40,153 bases of DNA, taken from the NCBI GenBank assembly GCA_027063505.1, contig JAMORO010000018.1, positions 1 to 40,153 of the forward strand, read 5' to 3'. Of the stretch, positions 3,584 through 40,153 are shown piece by piece (within the stretch, counting starts at the first letter, position 1; each line of letters begins with the position of its first letter). The notes under the pieces were generated by a model, which saw only the letters and a list, made by a program, of their open reading frames with translations, was not told the origin of the DNA and did not search any database. Both the position numbers and the translations under genes were made by a program. The DNA is from Sulfurimonas sp. Lineage in GTDB: Bacteria; Campylobacterota; Campylobacteria; Campylobacterales; Sulfurimonadaceae.

Positions 3584-4584
3584 TGGCATATGCAGCGTTT
3601 CGTTCTATAGGTGCTTATGCACCAGAAAAAATCTTAACAAATGAAGATTTATCAGCTATGGTTGATACTACAGATGAGTGGATAACGAAACGTACAGGTA
3701 TAAAAGAGCGTCATATTGCAGCTGAGAATGAGTTCACTTCAGATCTTGGTGTTAAAGCTGCTCAAAAAGCACTTGAGCGTAGTGGTGTGGCTCTTGAAGA
3801 TATTGACATGGTTGTTTGTGCAACTATCTCCCCTGACTACTTCTGTATGCCTTCAACTGCTACTATTATCTCAACTAAACTTGGTCTTAAAAATGTTACT
3901 GCATTTGATATTTCTGCTGCTTGTACTGGTTTTGTATATATCCTTTCAATAGCAAAAGCATTTATTGAATCTGGTATGAAGAAAAATGTACTTATTATTG
4001 GTGCAGAAAAACTTTCAGCTATTACTGACTACAGTGATCGTGGAACTTGTATTTTATTTGGTGATGGTGCAGGTGCTGCTGTAATCTCTGCTACTGATGA
4101 TAAAAGTGAAGCTATCATAGATGTTCATACTGGTGCAGATGGTGAGTATGCTGACCTTCTTATGACTCCAAATGGTGGTTCAGGTTCTGCACATGATTCA
4201 CTCTCTCAAGAGTCTAGAGCTTGTTTTATGCAGATGAAAGGGAATGAGACTTTTAAAGTTGCTGTTCGTACACTTACTAAAGATGTAAAAGAGATATTAT
4301 CAGAGAACAACATTCCGGCAGATGATATTGTTCACTTTGTGCCACATCAAGCAAATTATCGTATAATTAAAGCTGTTGGTGATGCTCTGAAATTAACAAA
4401 AGAGCAGGTAGTCCTTACTGTAGCCAAATATGGTAATACTTCAGGTGCTTCTATCCCTATGGCGATAAATGATGTTTATGAAGCTGGAAACCTTAAAGCG
4501 GGGGAGCTGATGCTTCTTGATGCTTTTGGTGGTGGTTTAACTTGGGGTTCTGCTTTAGTTCCTTTTTCACCTTTAAAAAAATAG
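3583..4584 (+). CDS. fabH: 3-oxoacyl-ACP synthase III (KAS III)
   Basis: FabH condenses acetyl-CoA with malonyl-ACP to begin fatty-acid elongation. The 333-residue protein has the full catalytic triad in normal context: C114 in [10 protein letters not shown]255 in VPHQANYR and N285 in YGNTSGAS. The C-terminal [10 protein letters not shown] motif is also typical. It is the last gene of the run; its stop is only 12 bases from the 3' end of the opposing HD-GYP gene, so convergent transcripts probably overlap. Confidence 0.97.
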
Positions 4585-4596
4585 AGTCGTAATCTT

Positions 4597-6954
4597 TTAA
4601 AGATACTGCTCTAAATCTACACTATCAATCTGCTCTCTTTTTAAATACTTTTTTGCATAAGTATTGTGTAAGTCACTCTGTAAAAAGAGTTTGAAGAGAT
4701 CCTCATCGATACTTTTGTCTTTTACCATAAAACTCATAATTTTAATAGCCTCTGAAAGAGTTTTAGCCTTTTTATAAGGTCTGTCAGATGCTGTTAATGC
4801 TTCAAATATATCGGCTATAGCCATAACTCGTGCAGGGATAGAGAGTTCATCTTTTGCAAGTTTTCTTGGATAGCCTGTTCCTATTAAAGTCTCATGGTGT
4901 GTTCCTGCATATTGTGGAATTTTTAGCATCTCTTTTGGAAAAGGAATTTTCTCTAACATTTTGATACTCATAATGACATGCTCATTTATTTTATATCGTT
5001 CCTCATGTGTGAGTGTACCTTTTGTAATACATAAGTTATATATCTCCCCTTTATTGTAAAGATATTCCGGTACATTTAGTTTAAACCCATCTTTTTTATA
5101 AGCCTCATAATCAAAATTTTCGCGTTCAATTAGATGACATTTTTTATCACTCAGAAGTTGTTCTAAGACTGGAAGTTTTTGTTTGCCTTGAGATCTGATC
5201 TTTTCTGCTTCACTCACACCAAGTGTATCATCAAAATTACGGAGCCATGTCTGTTGTGCAATCTTTTGAACTCTCTCTTGTTTAGTTTCATCCATAAATT
5301 CTCCACCAATATTAACCTCCGCAATAAAAATAAAATCATCCAGTAGTTGTGCCTGTTTTTCTTGCATTAACTTTTTTTCATGGGTTTTATCTTTTCCTTT
5401 TATGATATTTTCTAGATAACTTATCTGTGTATCTCGCCATAAGACTTCAAAACGAGTTCTAACTTCATGTATTCGATTGTTTATTGTTTCAAGTTTAGTA
5501 GATTTATCTACAACATACTCAGGTGTAGTTACTTTACCACAGTCATGTAACCAAGCACCAATCTCAAACTCTTTGAGTGCATCTCTGTCCTGTAAGCTAA
5601 AGGAGCGAAAAGCTTTCTCTTCTGATAAACTTGCTGCTTTAACAAGAAGAAGTGCTATTTCAGGGACGCGCTCACAATGTCCTCCTGTATAGGGTGACTT
5701 TGCATCAACAGCTTCTGCTATAAGTTTTACAATAGAGTCAAGTATAGCAACTTGAGATTTTTGATAGGTTTCTATACTTTGTGACATTGTAACAAGAGAG
5801 TGAGATAGTTCCCTAAACTCTAAGATATTTGTGTCAACAGTATTTACATCAGTAAAGTTACGTGCATAAATTTTATTATTCTCTTTTATAAGCTTTTTAA
5901 TTGGTTCTATGATTTTATTAGTTGCATAATATATAATGGGTAAAGAGAGTATAAATAGTCCAAGTGCTATGAAAAGTGAGTAAAAGGCATTCCTCTTATA
6001 TGGTTTAAAGAGTTCAGTAGCATTTACTTTTACTCCTAGATAGTGATAAGTGTTAGGAAGTTGCTTATAGCTTACAAAATAGTAAGTATCTTGCTGGTTA
6101 TATTTTATAAGTTTTACTTCATCTTGTATGTCTAGTGCCGCTTTTATTGTCTTATCTATGGTTTGTGATTTATTTATTTGCACAGGATTATCAGATCTAT
6201 TGACTCTATAGAGTATTCTCCCTTTATAATTAAATAAAAATATTTCAGCATTATCACTGAATAGTTGTCTACTTGTAAGCTTATCAAGACTTTTAAGTGT
6301 GTAGTCAATACCTAGTACAGTACCTTTCTCTTCTGTTTCTATGGCATAACTCATTCCTTTCTCTTGTAGTGTATTAAAGGTATATAGCGGAGTTGCTATA
6401 ACTTTATGAGTATTAATTGCAGATTTGTACCAAGGTCTATCACTTACATAAAGGTTGTCTTTAATCTGTTTTGTAGCAAGTAAATTCTCTTTTTGATCTA
6501 TAAAGTACTGGAAAGTATTTTTTGCATCTGATGTTACTACTAGCCATTTAGTATTTTTGAGTAAAGGGTCTAGTTCCCTCTCTTTTGTAACAAAATCATA
6601 ATTTATGACATTATAGTAAGAGCCATCTTTATGTGCAAAATAAATAGCTGTAACATCAGGATTAAGAGTGAGTAAATTTGTAAAATCATCAAATGCTGGA
6701 TGTTTTTTTTCCCCTGTAACGGGAGCATTTATATTTTCATCTTTGCTTATTCGAAGGAGCATTTTTCTTCGATCAGTAAGAATATTTTTTACCTCTACTG
6801 CAATATTTTCTCGAATAATATTGAAAGTCTTTTCAGTCTCTTTTACTGCAATTTTTTTATTAAAGTAGTATTGTGATGTTATAAGAAGAACGGTGATAGC
6901 TGTAAGTATCACCGTAAAGGTAAAGAGGATATTTGTTCGTATAGAGTATTTCAT
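4597..6954 (-). CDS. Cache-HAMP-HD-GYP sensor phosphodiesterase
   Basis: A 785-residue inner-membrane signalling protein predicted to hydrolyse cyclic di-GMP. Order: TM helix ~8-30; periplasmic double Cache sensor ~35-315 with the ligand-pocket-like VSDRPWYKSA at 170-179; TM helix ~322-343; HAMP ~344-396; HD-GYP domain from ~400. In the last, ER(428-429), HDCGK (470-474), H659, HH(686-687), GYP(694-696) and the helix ADIFEALTASDRPYK are all recognisable. HD-GYP proteins normally have a short loop between HDxGK and the LTxEE...H helix; here about 160 residues (roughly 485-645) intervene. The start lies 14 bases after the HIT-like gene with an AAGAG ribosome-binding site, so the two are probably co-transcribed. 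Ligand unknown. Confidence 0.88.
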   Translation of the reverse strand: MKYSIRTNILFTFTVILTAITVLLITSQYYFNKKIAVKETEKTFNIIRENIAVEVKNILTDRRKMLLRISKDENINAPVTGEKKHPAFDDFTNLLTLNPDVTAIYFAHKDGSYYNVINYDFVTKERELDPLLKNTKWLVVTSDAKNTFQYFIDQKENLLATKQIKDNLYVSDRPWYKSAINTHKVIATPLYTFNTLQEKGMSYAIETEEKGTVLGIDYTLKSLDKLTSRQLFSDNAEIFLFNYKGRILYRVNRSDNPVQINKSQTIDKTIKAALDIQDEVKLIKYNQQDTYYFVSYKQLPNTYHYLGVKVNATELFKPYKRNAFYSLFIALGLFILSLPIIYYATNKIIEPIKKLIKENNKIYARNFTDVNTVDTNILEFRELSHSLVTMSQSIETYQKSQVAILDSIVKLIAEAVDAKSPYTGGHCERVPEIALLLVKAASLSEEKAFRSFSLQDRDALKEFEIGAWLHDCGKVTTPEYVVDKSTKLETINNRIHEVRTRFEVLWRDTQISYLENIIKGKDKTHEKKLMQEKQAQLLDDFIFIAEVNIGGEFMDETKQERVQKIAQQTWLRNFDDTLGVSEAEKIRSQGKQKLPVLEQLLSDKKCHLIERENFDYEAYKKDGFKLNVPEYLYNKGEIYNLCITKGTLTHEERYKINEHVIMSIKMLEKIPFPKEMLKIPQYAGTHHETLIGTGYPRKLAKDELSIPARVMAIADIFEALTASDRPYKKAKTLSEAIKIMSFMVKDKSIDEDLFKLFLQSDLHNTYAKKYLKREQIDSVDLEQYL

Positions 6955-9067: not shown

Positions 9068-9153
9068 CATTATCCTTTAGTATAAGGGATGACACAAGTT
9101 GCTTTTTTTCTTGTAGAATCTTGCAGGTATCTTCCCCTATAAATATTTCGCGA

Positions 9154-36374: not shown

Positions 36375-37306
36375 CCTCTAAGTTTAGAATCAACCTTTAG
36401 TAGTCGCATCTTCTCTTTAAATACTTTTGACATCTTTGTCTGTTTGATAAAGGGTGCTATAAAGGTGTAAGTTGCTGTTTTACTTACAATGAATTTTCGT
36501 CCTATAACAACACTTGTCTCATCTCTTAATAGCTCTCTTTCATGTGCACTCAGTACTTTACCTTGACTCTTAAAGTATCTATCTATTAGCATGACCTCTG
36601 AACGGCTATCGTGAACTCTTTTAAAGTAAGTAAGAGAGTTACACTCTTTAAGCTCTATCTCTTTGATAAGGTCACTTACATCTTCATCGATATACTCAAA
36701 ACTTTTTTTAATGCCACTGAGATATTTCTCTAAAAGAGGAACTGTATGCTTATGTCGAAACTCATTGCGTTTGTATTTTTCATCTTGATTTGTTGCATCA
36801 AGAAAATAGTGGTGTTTTTGTCTATCAAGATAGTGGAGTAGTTCACTCTTATCGAGATGTAGCAGTGGACGTATAAGTTTATACTGATTGCGTTTTTCAA
36901 CGGCTTTCATACCAGCGATACCAACACAGCCTGAACCCTTGCAAAACTGCATAAGCATCCACTCAAATCTATCGCCTAGATGATGTGCAGTAAGAAGGTT
37001 TTTGTATTGATATTTCTCTATGAGTTCTTCAAAAAAATCATAACGAACTGTACGGGCTGTTGCCTCAAAGTTTTTTTCAATGCTATGGGACTGATAGGAG
37101 TAGCAGGTAAAGTTATAGCGTTTAGCAAGTGTTTGTGCATAAGCGAGCTCCTCTTTGGACTCTTCTCTTACACCATAATCAACGATAGCAATGTCAAAAG
37201 GAATGTTGTTTTCTAAGAGTAAAAAGAGGAGGGCAGTAGAGTCTACTCCAGCCGAGAAGGCTAAGAGGTTCTTTCTGTTTTGAAGGAGGTCTTTATTTTG
37301 AAGCAT
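36320..37306 (-). CDS. tilS: tRNA(Ile)-lysidine synthetase
   Basis: TilS converts the C34 anticodon base of tRNA-Ile(CAU) to lysidine with ATP and lysine, an essential decoding step. The 328-residue protein (from ATG 37306) has the PP-loop LAFSAGVDSTALL near residues 16-28 and further TilS segments LLTAHHLGDRFEWMLMQF, GIAGMKAV, IRPLLHLDKSELLHYL and YKRNEFRHK. It overlaps the rimO end by 14 bases; a TTG at 37312 is a less likely start. Its own end overlaps the convergent PilO-like gene by 55 bases. Confidence 0.94.
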   Translation of the reverse strand: MLQNKDLLQNRKNLLAFSAGVDSTALLFLLLENNIPFDIAIVDYGVREESKEELAYAQTLAKRYNFTCYSYQSHSIEKNFEATARTVRYDFFEELIEKYQYKNLLTAHHLGDRFEWMLMQFCKGSGCVGIAGMKAVEKRNQYKLIRPLLHLDKSELLHYLDRQKHHYFLDATNQDEKYKRNEFRHKHTVPLLEKYLSGIKKSFEYIDEDVSDLIKEIELKECNSLTYFKRVHDSRSEVMLIDRYFKSQGKVLSAHERELLRDETSVVIGRKFIVSKTATYTFIAPFIKQTKMSKVFKEKMRLLKVDSKLRGYLASDEEAVALVSLLLQ

Positions 37307-38618
37307 TATCAACTGTTGCAGTTAAAATATCTCCAACAATATCTGTAATCTTTGCTTTGTAAACTTTGCAAAACTCCAGCTCTTTTGAATCATCTGTTCT
37401 ATCATTTACATAGATCTCTCCATCTATCTCAGGTGCCCAGATAAGTTTACGAGCAGAGAGTAAAAACTCATGTTCATCACTCTCTCCATCTATAACGAGT
37501 TTACACTCTTTACCTATTTCAGCTTTTAAAGATGTAAGAGTACACTCACGAGCAATATTACCTAAGGTTTCAGCACGCTCAGACTTTACTTCATCGCTGA
37601 TTTTTAACTCATAGTCAAAGGCTGGAGTAGTCTCTTCATCAGAGTAGGCAAAGACATTAATACGGTCAAAACCAAAAGAAGCAGCAAACTCACACATCTC
37701 ATCAAACATCTCTTGTGTCTCATTTGGGTGGCCAACTATAAAGCTTGTTCGTACAAAAGAGTTTGGAAGTTCCCGCATAAACTCTAAAAGTTCTATAGTC
37801 TTATCTTTCCCAAAGCCACGCTTCATCATACGTAGCATATCGTTGTTTATATGTTGAATAGGCATATCAAAGTAGTTATGGAAAATCTCACTTTTTGCTA
37901 TATTTTTAAGAAGTGCAATAGTTGTTGTTGATGGATATAGGTAGAGAATTCGTGCAGAAGTTACACCCTCTATAAGCTCTATTCTTTGGATAAGGAGACT
38001 TAAACCATCTTTGATATTTTGGTCACGAAGATATGAAGAGCTATCTTGCGAAACAAAAGAGAAGTCATAAAATCCTTTTTTAACAAGTCCTTCAACCTCT
38101 TTAGCAATTGAGTCTAAATCACGAGAGTTTAGTTTTCCTTTAAAGGAGGGAATAGCACAAAAACTACACTCTTGATTACACCCCTCTGAGAGTTTTATGT
38201 ATGCATGGTAAGTAGAACCTGTTACAACACGCTCCGCTCCATCTATAAGAAAGACTTCATCTGAAAAGCGACTCTTCTTTTCTACTAAAAGTTCATCTAT
38301 CTTATCATAATCACCTACACCTGTAAAGATGTCAACTTCAGGAATCTGAGTCATAAGGTCATCTTGATAGCGTTCAGAGAGACATCCCGCCATAACTAAA
38401 ACAGAGTCCTCTTTTCTTGCATCGTGAAGAGAGAGCACCGTGTTGATAGACTCCTCTTTAGCTGCATCGATAAAACCACAAGTATTTACGATGATAACAT
38501 CTGCTTCTTCATTGTTATCTGTGAGTTCAAAGTTCTGGAGTTTTCCCATCATAACTTCTGTATCTACAAGGTTTTTTGTACATCCTAAGGAGACTATATG
38601 TAGTTTATTGTTTTTCAT
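37293..38618 (-). CDS. rimO: ribosomal protein S12 methylthiotransferase
   Basis: RimO methylthiolates an aspartate of ribosomal protein S12 with SAM and two iron-sulfur clusters. The 441-residue protein has the MTTase cysteines C13 (SLGCTKNLVDTE, the RimO-type N terminus), C47 and C79, the radical-SAM triad C147-x3-C151-x2-C154 (SEGCNQECSFCAIP), the FVSQDSSSY segment, and a TRAM-like C terminus. LYLYPS and the IQHINNDMLRMMKRG segment distinguish it from MiaB. It forms an operon with tilS and diverges from bioD. Confidence 0.95.
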   Translation of the reverse strand: MKNNKLHIVSLGCTKNLVDTEVMMGKLQNFELTDNNEEADVIIVNTCGFIDAAKEESINTVLSLHDARKEDSVLVMAGCLSERYQDDLMTQIPEVDIFTGVGDYDKIDELLVEKKSRFSDEVFLIDGAERVVTGSTYHAYIKLSEGCNQECSFCAIPSFKGKLNSRDLDSIAKEVEGLVKKGFYDFSFVSQDSSSYLRDQNIKDGLSLLIQRIELIEGVTSARILYLYPSTTTIALLKNIAKSEIFHNYFDMPIQHINNDMLRMMKRGFGKDKTIELLEFMRELPNSFVRTSFIVGHPNETQEMFDEMCEFAASFGFDRINVFAYSDEETTPAFDYELKISDEVKSERAETLGNIARECTLTSLKAEIGKECKLVIDGESDEHEFLLSARKLIWAPEIDGEIYVNDRTDDSKELEFCKVYKAKITDIVGDILTATVDNASK

Positions 38619-38644
38619 TCATTATCCATGCTTAACTTTTTTTG

Positions 38645-38653
38645 TATTATACT
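38645..38653 (+). promoter_or_regulatory. -10 region (TATTATACT) of bioD
   Basis: TATTATACT contains overlapping -10 matches TATTAT and TATACT, the latter ending seven bases before the ATG at 38661. No ribosome-binding site fits in the gap. The same 9-mer precedes the small ORF at 11745. Confidence 0.5.
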
Positions 38654-38660
38654 ACATATT

Positions 38661-39308
38661 ATGAAAAAAAGAATATTTGTCACAGCAACAAACACAAACA
38701 TTGGTAAAACATATACAAGCCTGAGACTCTTAGAAGAGTATGCTTCAAGAGGCTTAAAAGTAGGGGCTATTAAACTTGTTGAGACGGGAGTCGTAGATGG
38801 GCTTTATCCTGATGGTGAGTTACTCCTCAAAAAGATGCAGGAGTTAAATCCTTTACTTGGTGAGTTTAGAGTTGAAGATGTAGTTCCTATCTCTTATGAA
38901 CTTCCAGCAGCTCCTTATATAGCTTCACAGGGCAAAGCACTCGATTTTGATGTTTTAAATAGAGCTATAGAGAAGATGGAAAAGTATTGTGATGTACTTA
39001 TATTAGAGGGAGCAGGGGGGCTTTTTGTTCCCGTAGATGGAAACTTTATGATGATAGATCTTATTCAGTTTTTCAGTGCGACAGGACTTCTTGTAACACA
39101 CTGCTCACTTGGGTGTATAAATGATACACTTCTGAGCCTTCAGTCACTTCAAAGTAGAAATATAGATGCAGCAATGGCGTTTAACTGTAGAGAGGAGGAT
39201 AGTGATTTCGCTCAGATTAGTGAACCATTCTTCCTTCATAATGATATTGAAGTTTTAAAAGTAGATGAAGACATTGACACTATTTGTGATGTCTTGTATA
39301 ATTTCTAA
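38661..39308 (+). CDS. bioD: dethiobiotin synthetase
   Basis: BioD makes dethiobiotin from 7,8-diaminopelargonate, CO2 and ATP, the step before BioB. The 215-residue protein from ATG 38661 opens MKKRIFVTATNTNIGKTYTS with the P loop (K16-T17). K38 lies in IKLVETG; most relatives have KPVxTG, so Pro is replaced by Leu. LEGAGGLFVPVD is another signature, as is AFNCRE. An upstream ATG at 38628 would add a hydrophobic extension unlike BioD, so the internal start is chosen. There is no ribosome-binding site and a -10 box sits 7 bases upstream, pointing to a leaderless mRNA. pyrB follows after 26 bases. Confidence 0.9.
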   Translation: MKKRIFVTATNTNIGKTYTSLRLLEEYASRGLKVGAIKLVETGVVDGLYPDGELLLKKMQELNPLLGEFRVEDVVPISYELPAAPYIASQGKALDFDVLNRAIEKMEKYCDVLILEGAGGLFVPVDGNFMMIDLIQFFSATGLLVTHCSLGCINDTLLSLQSLQSRNIDAAMAFNCREEDSDFAQISEPFFLHNDIEVLKVDEDIDTICDVLYNF

Positions 39309-39334
39309 ATTAATTAAAAAGAGAGAGAGTTTAT

Positions 39335-40153
39335 ATGGCACACTTAATTCGCACCGATGATTTTAGTAAAGATGAGATTTTAGAGATTTTAGCAGATGCG
39401 AAAAAGTTTAGTGATGGTCGTTTTGATAGAATTTTACAAGATAAAATAATCATAACACTCTTCTTTGAAAACTCTACAAGAACAAAATCCTCTTTTGAGA
39501 TAGCTGCAAAACGTTTAGGTGCTGAGATGGTACACCTTGATGTTGCTAAGAGCTCTACAAAAAAAGGGGAAACTCTTGTAGATACTGCGATGAACCTTGA
39601 TGCTATGGGGCCTCATGCAATTATCGTTCGTCATCAAAACTCAGGAGTACCTCAGATACTCTCAGAACATACTAATGCGAGTATCTTAAATGCAGGAGAT
39701 GGTGCACATGCTCACCCCTCTCAAGCACTCTTAGACCTCTATACTTTAAAAGAGCATTTTGGAGAGTTAGAGGGAAAAAAGATAGCCATAGTTGGCGATA
39801 TTAAAAACTCTCGTGTTGCAAACTCAAACATTGAACTCTTAACACGCTTTGGGCTGGAGGTTATTTTAGTTGCTCCTCCTCATTTTTTACCAAAAACAAA
39901 GCTCAAAACAACGCACTTTTTAACTGAAATTATTGATGAGGTTGATGCTATTATGAGTTTGCGTACACAGACTGAACGTCACTCTTCACAAAGTTATGCA
40001 AGTCTTAAAGATTATGCGAGTGATTTTTGTATTACAGAAGAGCTTCTTGGGGATAGAGATATCATCCTTCTTCACCCTGGGCCAGTACATAGAAACATAG
40101 ATATTACAGATGCACTTCTTGATGATGAACGCTGTAAGGTTTTAGATCAGGTG
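39335..40153 (+). CDS. pyrB: aspartate carbamoyltransferase catalytic subunit, 5' part (runs off window)
   Basis: PyrB joins carbamoyl phosphate and aspartate in pyrimidine synthesis. The frame is open from the ATG at 39335 (GAGAGAG ribosome-binding site) to the right edge, giving 273 of about 300 residues. Signatures are [13 protein letters not shown] (carbamoyl phosphate site), SSTKKGE with the catalytic Lys, [20 protein letters not shown] and [12 protein letters not shown]. It is probably co-transcribed with bioD. The C terminus and any partner such as pyrC lie outside the window. Confidence 0.96.

Follow-up and report, generated by a model that had tools for sequence, protein, structure and literature searches.

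Porcelli et al. (2013, PMC3847290) described leaderless mRNAs in Campylobacter jejuni and Helicobacter pylori. The search pattern used there is gnTAnaAT-N5-9-ATG, with ATG as the only start codon and no Shine-Dalgarno (SD) sequence, and switching between the leaderless and leadered states was predicted across 42 genomes, Sulfurimonas included. Neither bioD nor biotin appears in the main text of that paper. Six leaderless C. jejuni genes are supported by Ribo-seq (PMC11955535). In Deinococcus-Thermus a -10 region adjacent to ORFs gives leaderless mRNA, an arrangement that is called a common pattern in the title of the report (PMC12340547). Another described class is the symmetric -10 bidirectional promoter, in which overlapping boxes lie on both strands and the two starts are 7-25 bp apart (PMC10268837, PMC12825309, both citing Warman et al. 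2021); an arrangement with 18 bp is given in the first of these. Among the titles and abstract openings searched there was no report of a leaderless bioD or of leaderless genes with an inversion.

The stretch of DNA analysed here, referred to as the window, is the whole of contig C18 (40153 bases) of a 2.10 Mb Sulfurimonas genome in 86 contigs. Its right end carries tilS and rimO (-), followed by bioD and pyrB (+), each scoring above the cut-off of its curated family (Table 1).

Table 1. Features of the bioD region, other leaderless-type starts in the window and the relocated flavoprotein gene
Feature	Position	Strand	Remarks
rimO	37293..38618	-	divergent neighbour of bioD; TIGR01125 379.4 bits, cut-off 356.95
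In-frame upstream ATG with 11-codon extension	38628..38660	+	judged not to be the start
TATTAT	38645..38650	+	alternative bioD -10 box, 10 nt before ATG; predicted 5' end 38657-38658
TATAAT	38646..38651	-	likely -10 box of rimO, 27 nt before rimO ATG; predicted 5' end about 38638-38639
TATACT	38648..38653	+	preferred bioD -10 box, 7 nt before ATG; predicted 5' end 38660-38661
bioD, dethiobiotin synthase, 215 aa	38661..39308	+	TIGR00347 117.7 bits, cut-off 83.3
TTGACA-17-TATAAT	39274..39302	+	perfect sigma-70-type promoter (12/12 matches) within last codons of bioD
pyrB	39335..40153	+	cut by contig end; NF002032 334.6 bits, cut-off 263
Response regulator	19411	+	leaderless-type start, box 6 nt
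123-aa protein without NCBIfam match	27032	-	leaderless-type start, box 6 nt
ABC permease	28477	+	leaderless-type start, box 8 nt
Flavoprotein	contig C43 (G000; L246, L251), 4072-5214	-	bioD-like leaderless promoter
ilvC	contig C43, 5421-6440	-	upstream neighbour of flavoprotein
TIGR00275 flavoprotein, L199 copy			333.8 bits, cut-off 183.8

The start region of bioD

The bases TATTATACT (38645-38653) stand upstream of the bioD ATG (38661-38663) and contain two overlapping -10-like boxes on the plus strand, TATTAT and TATACT. With a -10-like hexamer defined as TA....T with at least five of six matches to TATAAT, these are the sole plus-strand examples in 38400-38660, and the DNA upstream of bioD, which is antisense to rimO, has no further box in about 260 nt. 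The first-pass annotation had placed the end of the motif seven bases before the start codon and had noted no SD sequence, and both points are confirmed: the spacer between TATACT and the ATG is ACATATT (38654-38660), and predicted pairing with the anti-SD is +0.8 kcal at 38661. Thus the gene begins with ATG, has no SD, and has a -10 box near enough that the 5' end would fall no more than a few nt from the start codon. The extended -10 sequence (gnTAnaAT) is absent; AT precedes TATACT and TG precedes TATTAT. If TATTAT is the hexamer in use, there may be a leader of 3-4 nt with its 5' end at 38657-38658 instead of 38660-38661. No Rfam match at gathering thresholds, riboswitch or other RNA, was found in the window, and no intrinsic terminator in 38300-39400.

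The same annotation regarded 38661 as the only BioD-like start. This needs amending, as an in-frame ATG exists at 38628 with the frame open between the two, and translation from it on a leadered mRNA would give a protein longer by 11 residues. The upstream ATG however has no SD (anti-SD pairing +1.0 kcal) and no -10-like box back to 38400, the extension is hydrophobic, and 14 of the 18 other leaderless-type relatives described below lack any in-frame upstream start. Initiation at 38628 is therefore considered extremely unlikely, and 38661 is retained as the start.

The two strands of the window together have 1496 ATG triplets, and such a hexamer stands 6 or 7 nt before 30 of them. With this background of 2.0%, the bioD site taken alone is suggestive but not decisive, and a chance match was ruled out only once comparative data were added.

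Leaderless-type starts in the genome

A scan of 593,533 bases of this genome covered 558 ORFs, taken with a simple length-based picker, and 779 candidate ATG starts. Hexamers of the G-extended type, with a G two bases before the -10 box, occur 6 nt before 16 candidate ATGs and 7 nt before four; the 17 other offsets between 0 and 18 nt hold 13 in total, or about 0.8 per offset (Poisson 3e-16 for the 16). In two of the 16 cases the ORF has an earlier start, and in four the anti-SD energy is at or below -4.0 kcal, so not every start of this type is free of SD-like bases. Among candidate TTG and GTG starts, one of 360 has a G-extended hexamer at 6 nt. A second, broad rise of these hexamers 27-34 nt before starts is probably the ordinary leadered class. 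Because G-extended boxes peak at 6 nt before ATG, leaderless-type starts are judged to be real in this genome, at roughly 3% of ORFs.

With the loose -10 motif the genome-wide peak is modest, 25 at 6 nt versus about 10 per offset, and at 7 nt the 10 cases do not exceed background and make no case for that distance by themselves. The sharp peak at 6 nt requires the G-extended motif, and bioD, without that G, lies outside the strict set.

The window was said in the first-pass annotation to contain several such cases, and three starts besides that of bioD bear this out (Table 1). A start at 9070(-) was set aside because AAGGA precedes it.

bioD across the genus

A BioD match is present in 124 of 135 genomes searched. 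Upstream sequences of 90 bioD loci from the one genus were compared, comprising a first set of 30 loci, the window's own included, and 60 picked down the ranking; among the 34 BioD-matching genomes outside the 90, some have the match at a contig end and others were left out. A -10-like box lies 6 nt (15 loci) or 7 nt (four loci) before the bioD start in 19 of the 90, this locus included. At no locus does such a box end 1-5, 8 or 9 nt before the start, and at one (L034) it ends at 0 nt. For the 19 leaderless-type loci the anti-SD energy has a mean of +0.67 kcal (best -1.9), compared with -3.2 for the other 71, which start with ATG (53), TTG (16) or GTG (2). The 19 all begin with ATG followed by Lys at codon 2, which could be an adaptation to the leaderless state, a reading that the five independent pairs on supported branches of the BioD tree are too few to decide.

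Ranked by BioD identity, the closest relatives (L002-L006) all belong to the leaderless type, and L002-L005 have a better box, TATAAT at 6 nt, that is absent in this genome. The site in the window is the weakest of the 19, with TATACT at 7 nt and without the G two bases before the hexamer that 16 of the 19 possess. This weakness, like the overlap with the likely rimO promoter considered below, goes beyond the first-pass annotation. Support for a leaderless bioD comes more from the relatives than from the weak local site. Together the comparative and genome-wide evidence favors a bioD mRNA that is probably leaderless or nearly so, with its 5' end at the start codon or no more than four bases from it; the first-pass prediction of 38660-38661 stands as one option, beside the 5' end predicted from TATTAT.

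Twelve of the 19 leaderless-type bioD genes lie behind ilvC, three are divergent from a TPR-like gene, two from a PLP-enzyme-like gene and one, in the window, from rimO, and one has no long upstream ORF. The names ilvC, TPR-like and PLP-enzyme-like at these loci are what we take the genes to be from reading the sequences by eye.

A quick maximum-likelihood tree of this short protein (90 rows, 211 columns, first four residues excluded) requires 10 changes of state, at least five of them on well-supported branches, versus about 17.5 when the labels are shuffled (0 of 500 as low); the tree does not tell gain from loss of the leaderless state. By the predicted start types, the leaderless state of bioD recurs within the genus, with at least five switches of this one gene between a leaderless-type and an SD-type start.

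Five loci (L007, L010, L013, L041 and L052) have leadered bioD starts, TTGGCAAAA, behind SD-like purines, and a -10-like box 17-19 nt upstream. They look as if a short leader stood between the -10 box and the start.

A promoter probably shared with rimO

The bases of the bioD motif also hold a perfect TATAAT on the minus strand (38651->38646), which the first-pass annotation missed. It overlaps both plus-strand hexamers and is reciprocal with TATTAT, in the 18-bp geometry of PMC10268837. The predicted distance between the divergent starts is 18 bp with TATTAT and 21-23 bp with TATACT, in either case within the 7-25 bp of symmetric promoters. Since the rimO -10 box on the opposite strand lies in the bioD motif, the two genes likely share a pseudo-symmetric two-way promoter.

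The overlap also means that part of the match of the bioD box is explained by rimO. The motif might then be a promoter of rimO only, with transcription of bioD starting at another site, such as a non-consensus promoter lying antisense in rimO, and giving an mRNA with an SD-less leader. The minus-strand box is indeed perfect, and it is placed about as in many rimO relatives. What weighs against this reading, besides the lack of an SD at 38661 and of any other plus-strand -10-like hexamer in 38400-38660, is that sister genomes share the start type of bioD despite different upstream sequence and different neighbours. We regard it as unlikely, and prefer the two-way promoter serving both genes.

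The neighbourhood of rimO was surveyed at 30 loci, the best of 60 genomes, the window included. A TIGR00275 flavoprotein gene adjoins rimO in 27 of them; the exceptions are the window, L207 and L217, and at L217 a flavoprotein-like start was seen beside rimO but the match fell below threshold. All 27 rimO-facing flavoprotein genes (L197-L225) have a leaderless-type start, with TATAAT 6 nt before the ATG in 26 and 7 nt in one. A reversed TATAAT (ATTATA) lies within 45 nt upstream in 26 of the 27, mostly 19-25 bases before the ATG, and in our reading would be rimO's own -10 box in these relatives. On the strength of these two counts, rimO in this genus seems as a rule to have back-to-back -10 boxes beside it, one of them serving a leaderless gene. 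The flavoprotein-rimO loci mostly have the boxes arranged as ATTATAnnnTATAAT and similar sequences, apparently shared with rimO.

Apparent exchange of bioD and the flavoprotein gene

In the relatives bioD often lies behind ilvC, and rimO has the leaderless-type flavoprotein gene opposite it. Here that gene (69% identical to the L199 copy) lies behind ilvC and not beside rimO, and rimO is the neighbour of bioD only in this genome, at one of 90 bioD loci. The start unit of the relocated flavoprotein gene, GCTATACTTCTCTC then ATGAAAAAAT, agrees with the L006 bioD unit in 22 of 24 bases and with seven other leaderless-type bioD units in 16-20 of 24. When only the 14 bases preceding the start are counted, agreement is 7-13 bases for the eight bioD units (calculated from the 24-base counts) and 3-9 for the 27 flavoprotein units; the ranges overlap, and the top match is a bioD unit. 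A blastn search with the 210 bases upstream of this gene found the bioD upstreams of seven relatives and none of the 27 flavoprotein upstreams. The best piece (L006) has 85 bases at 82% with E 1e-17, and a weak piece from the same locus (38 bases, 79%, E 0.005) extends to the last bases before the start codon. From these neighbourhoods and likenesses, bioD and the flavoprotein gene seem to have exchanged places in this genome.

Both new neighbourhoods, rimO-bioD and ilvC-flavoprotein, are seen directly in the assembly. An assembly or binning error at the rimO-bioD junction, the real bioD being behind ilvC with its own TATAAT box, has to be weighed given that this junction was found once among 90 loci, lies 1.5 kb from a contig end and belongs to an assembly of 86 contigs with 4.83% estimated contamination. 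But a different contig of this assembly carries the reciprocal junction, and a single error would not produce both. In addition BioD matches once in the genome, and the flavoprotein once above 46% identity. Such an error is thus very unlikely, and the exchange is preferred.

Most simply, the exchange would be one inversion, rather than two separate moves, with its ends at or near two units of the form "-10 box, six bases, ATGAAAA". In a strand check by eye of 10 relatives with bioD and rimO on one contig, the genes are on the same strand in seven, as an inversion needs, and not in three, the flavoprotein gene having been checked to face rimO in only some of the 10. The old bioD and flavoprotein units within one genome share 19/24, 18/24 and 14/24 bases in the three relatives compared. 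At the window end of the exchange the TATAAT of the flavoprotein gene has not survived, and ATTATA is followed by nine bases and then the ATG. It would thus seem that bioD depends on the rimO box read in reverse; the exact break on this side is not placeable.

More speculatively, given the bases that the bioD and flavoprotein units share, the unit of -10 box, six bases and ATGAAAA might act generally as a recombination joint of leaderless genes, so that inversions at start codons swap promoters without loss of expression. We think this rather doubtful; if true, it would help to explain poor gene order and the switching of the leaderless state in Campylobacterota. The present locus supplies a specific instance of rearrangement, two leaderless-type genes appearing to have traded positions through a break at or near the start codon.

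A probable pyrB promoter in the end of bioD

Of 30 loci, 28 have pyrB next to bioD, and the remaining two are truncated by a contig end. The TATAAT of the promoter in the last codons of bioD is present in 27 of the 28 bioD-pyrB loci, this one included, and is TACAAT in the remaining one. This promoter probably serves pyrB, which therefore need not rely on the bioD transcript. With TATAAT kept in 27 of 28 loci, the C-terminus of BioD may be partly constrained by this promoter.

Proposed mechanism

In the following scheme the transcription start, the mode of translation, the two-way use of the promoter and the inversion are all inferred from sequence. RNA polymerase with the housekeeping sigma factor would bind 38645-38653 in either direction. 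A rightward start at 38657-38661 would produce a bioD mRNA with a leader of 0-4 nt, which with either plus-strand box is too short for an SD sequence. Ribosomes can start on a 5'-terminal AUG, and on this mRNA they would initiate on an AUG that is 5'-terminal or nearly so. A leftward start near 38638-38639 would produce a rimO mRNA with a short leader. bioD would have come to face rimO through the exchange with the leaderless flavoprotein gene. The scheme predicts, to the base, the leaderless start of a metabolic gene in Sulfurimonas, a genus for which no start-site map was found in the literature searched, the relevant paper mapping other species.

Comparison with known systems

The rimO-bioD promoter resembles the symmetric promoters of PMC10268837 and PMC12825309 in its overlapping boxes and in a predicted distance that falls within their range. 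It differs from those described there in that one direction is predicted to be leaderless and in that its starts are predicted from sequence. In having the box next to the start codon, bioD also resembles the Deinococcus-Thermus cases (PMC12340547), which belong to a different phylum. The closest likeness is to the cases of PMC3847290, with a sigma-70 -10 box just before the ATG and no SD. A leaderless gene start is thus of a kind already known, and what is new, within the literature searched, is the leaderless-type state of bioD and its apparent swap with the flavoprotein gene. Unlike the 42-genome survey as described in PMC3847290, the present comparison follows one gene through 90 genomes of one genus and adds a reciprocal gene swap.
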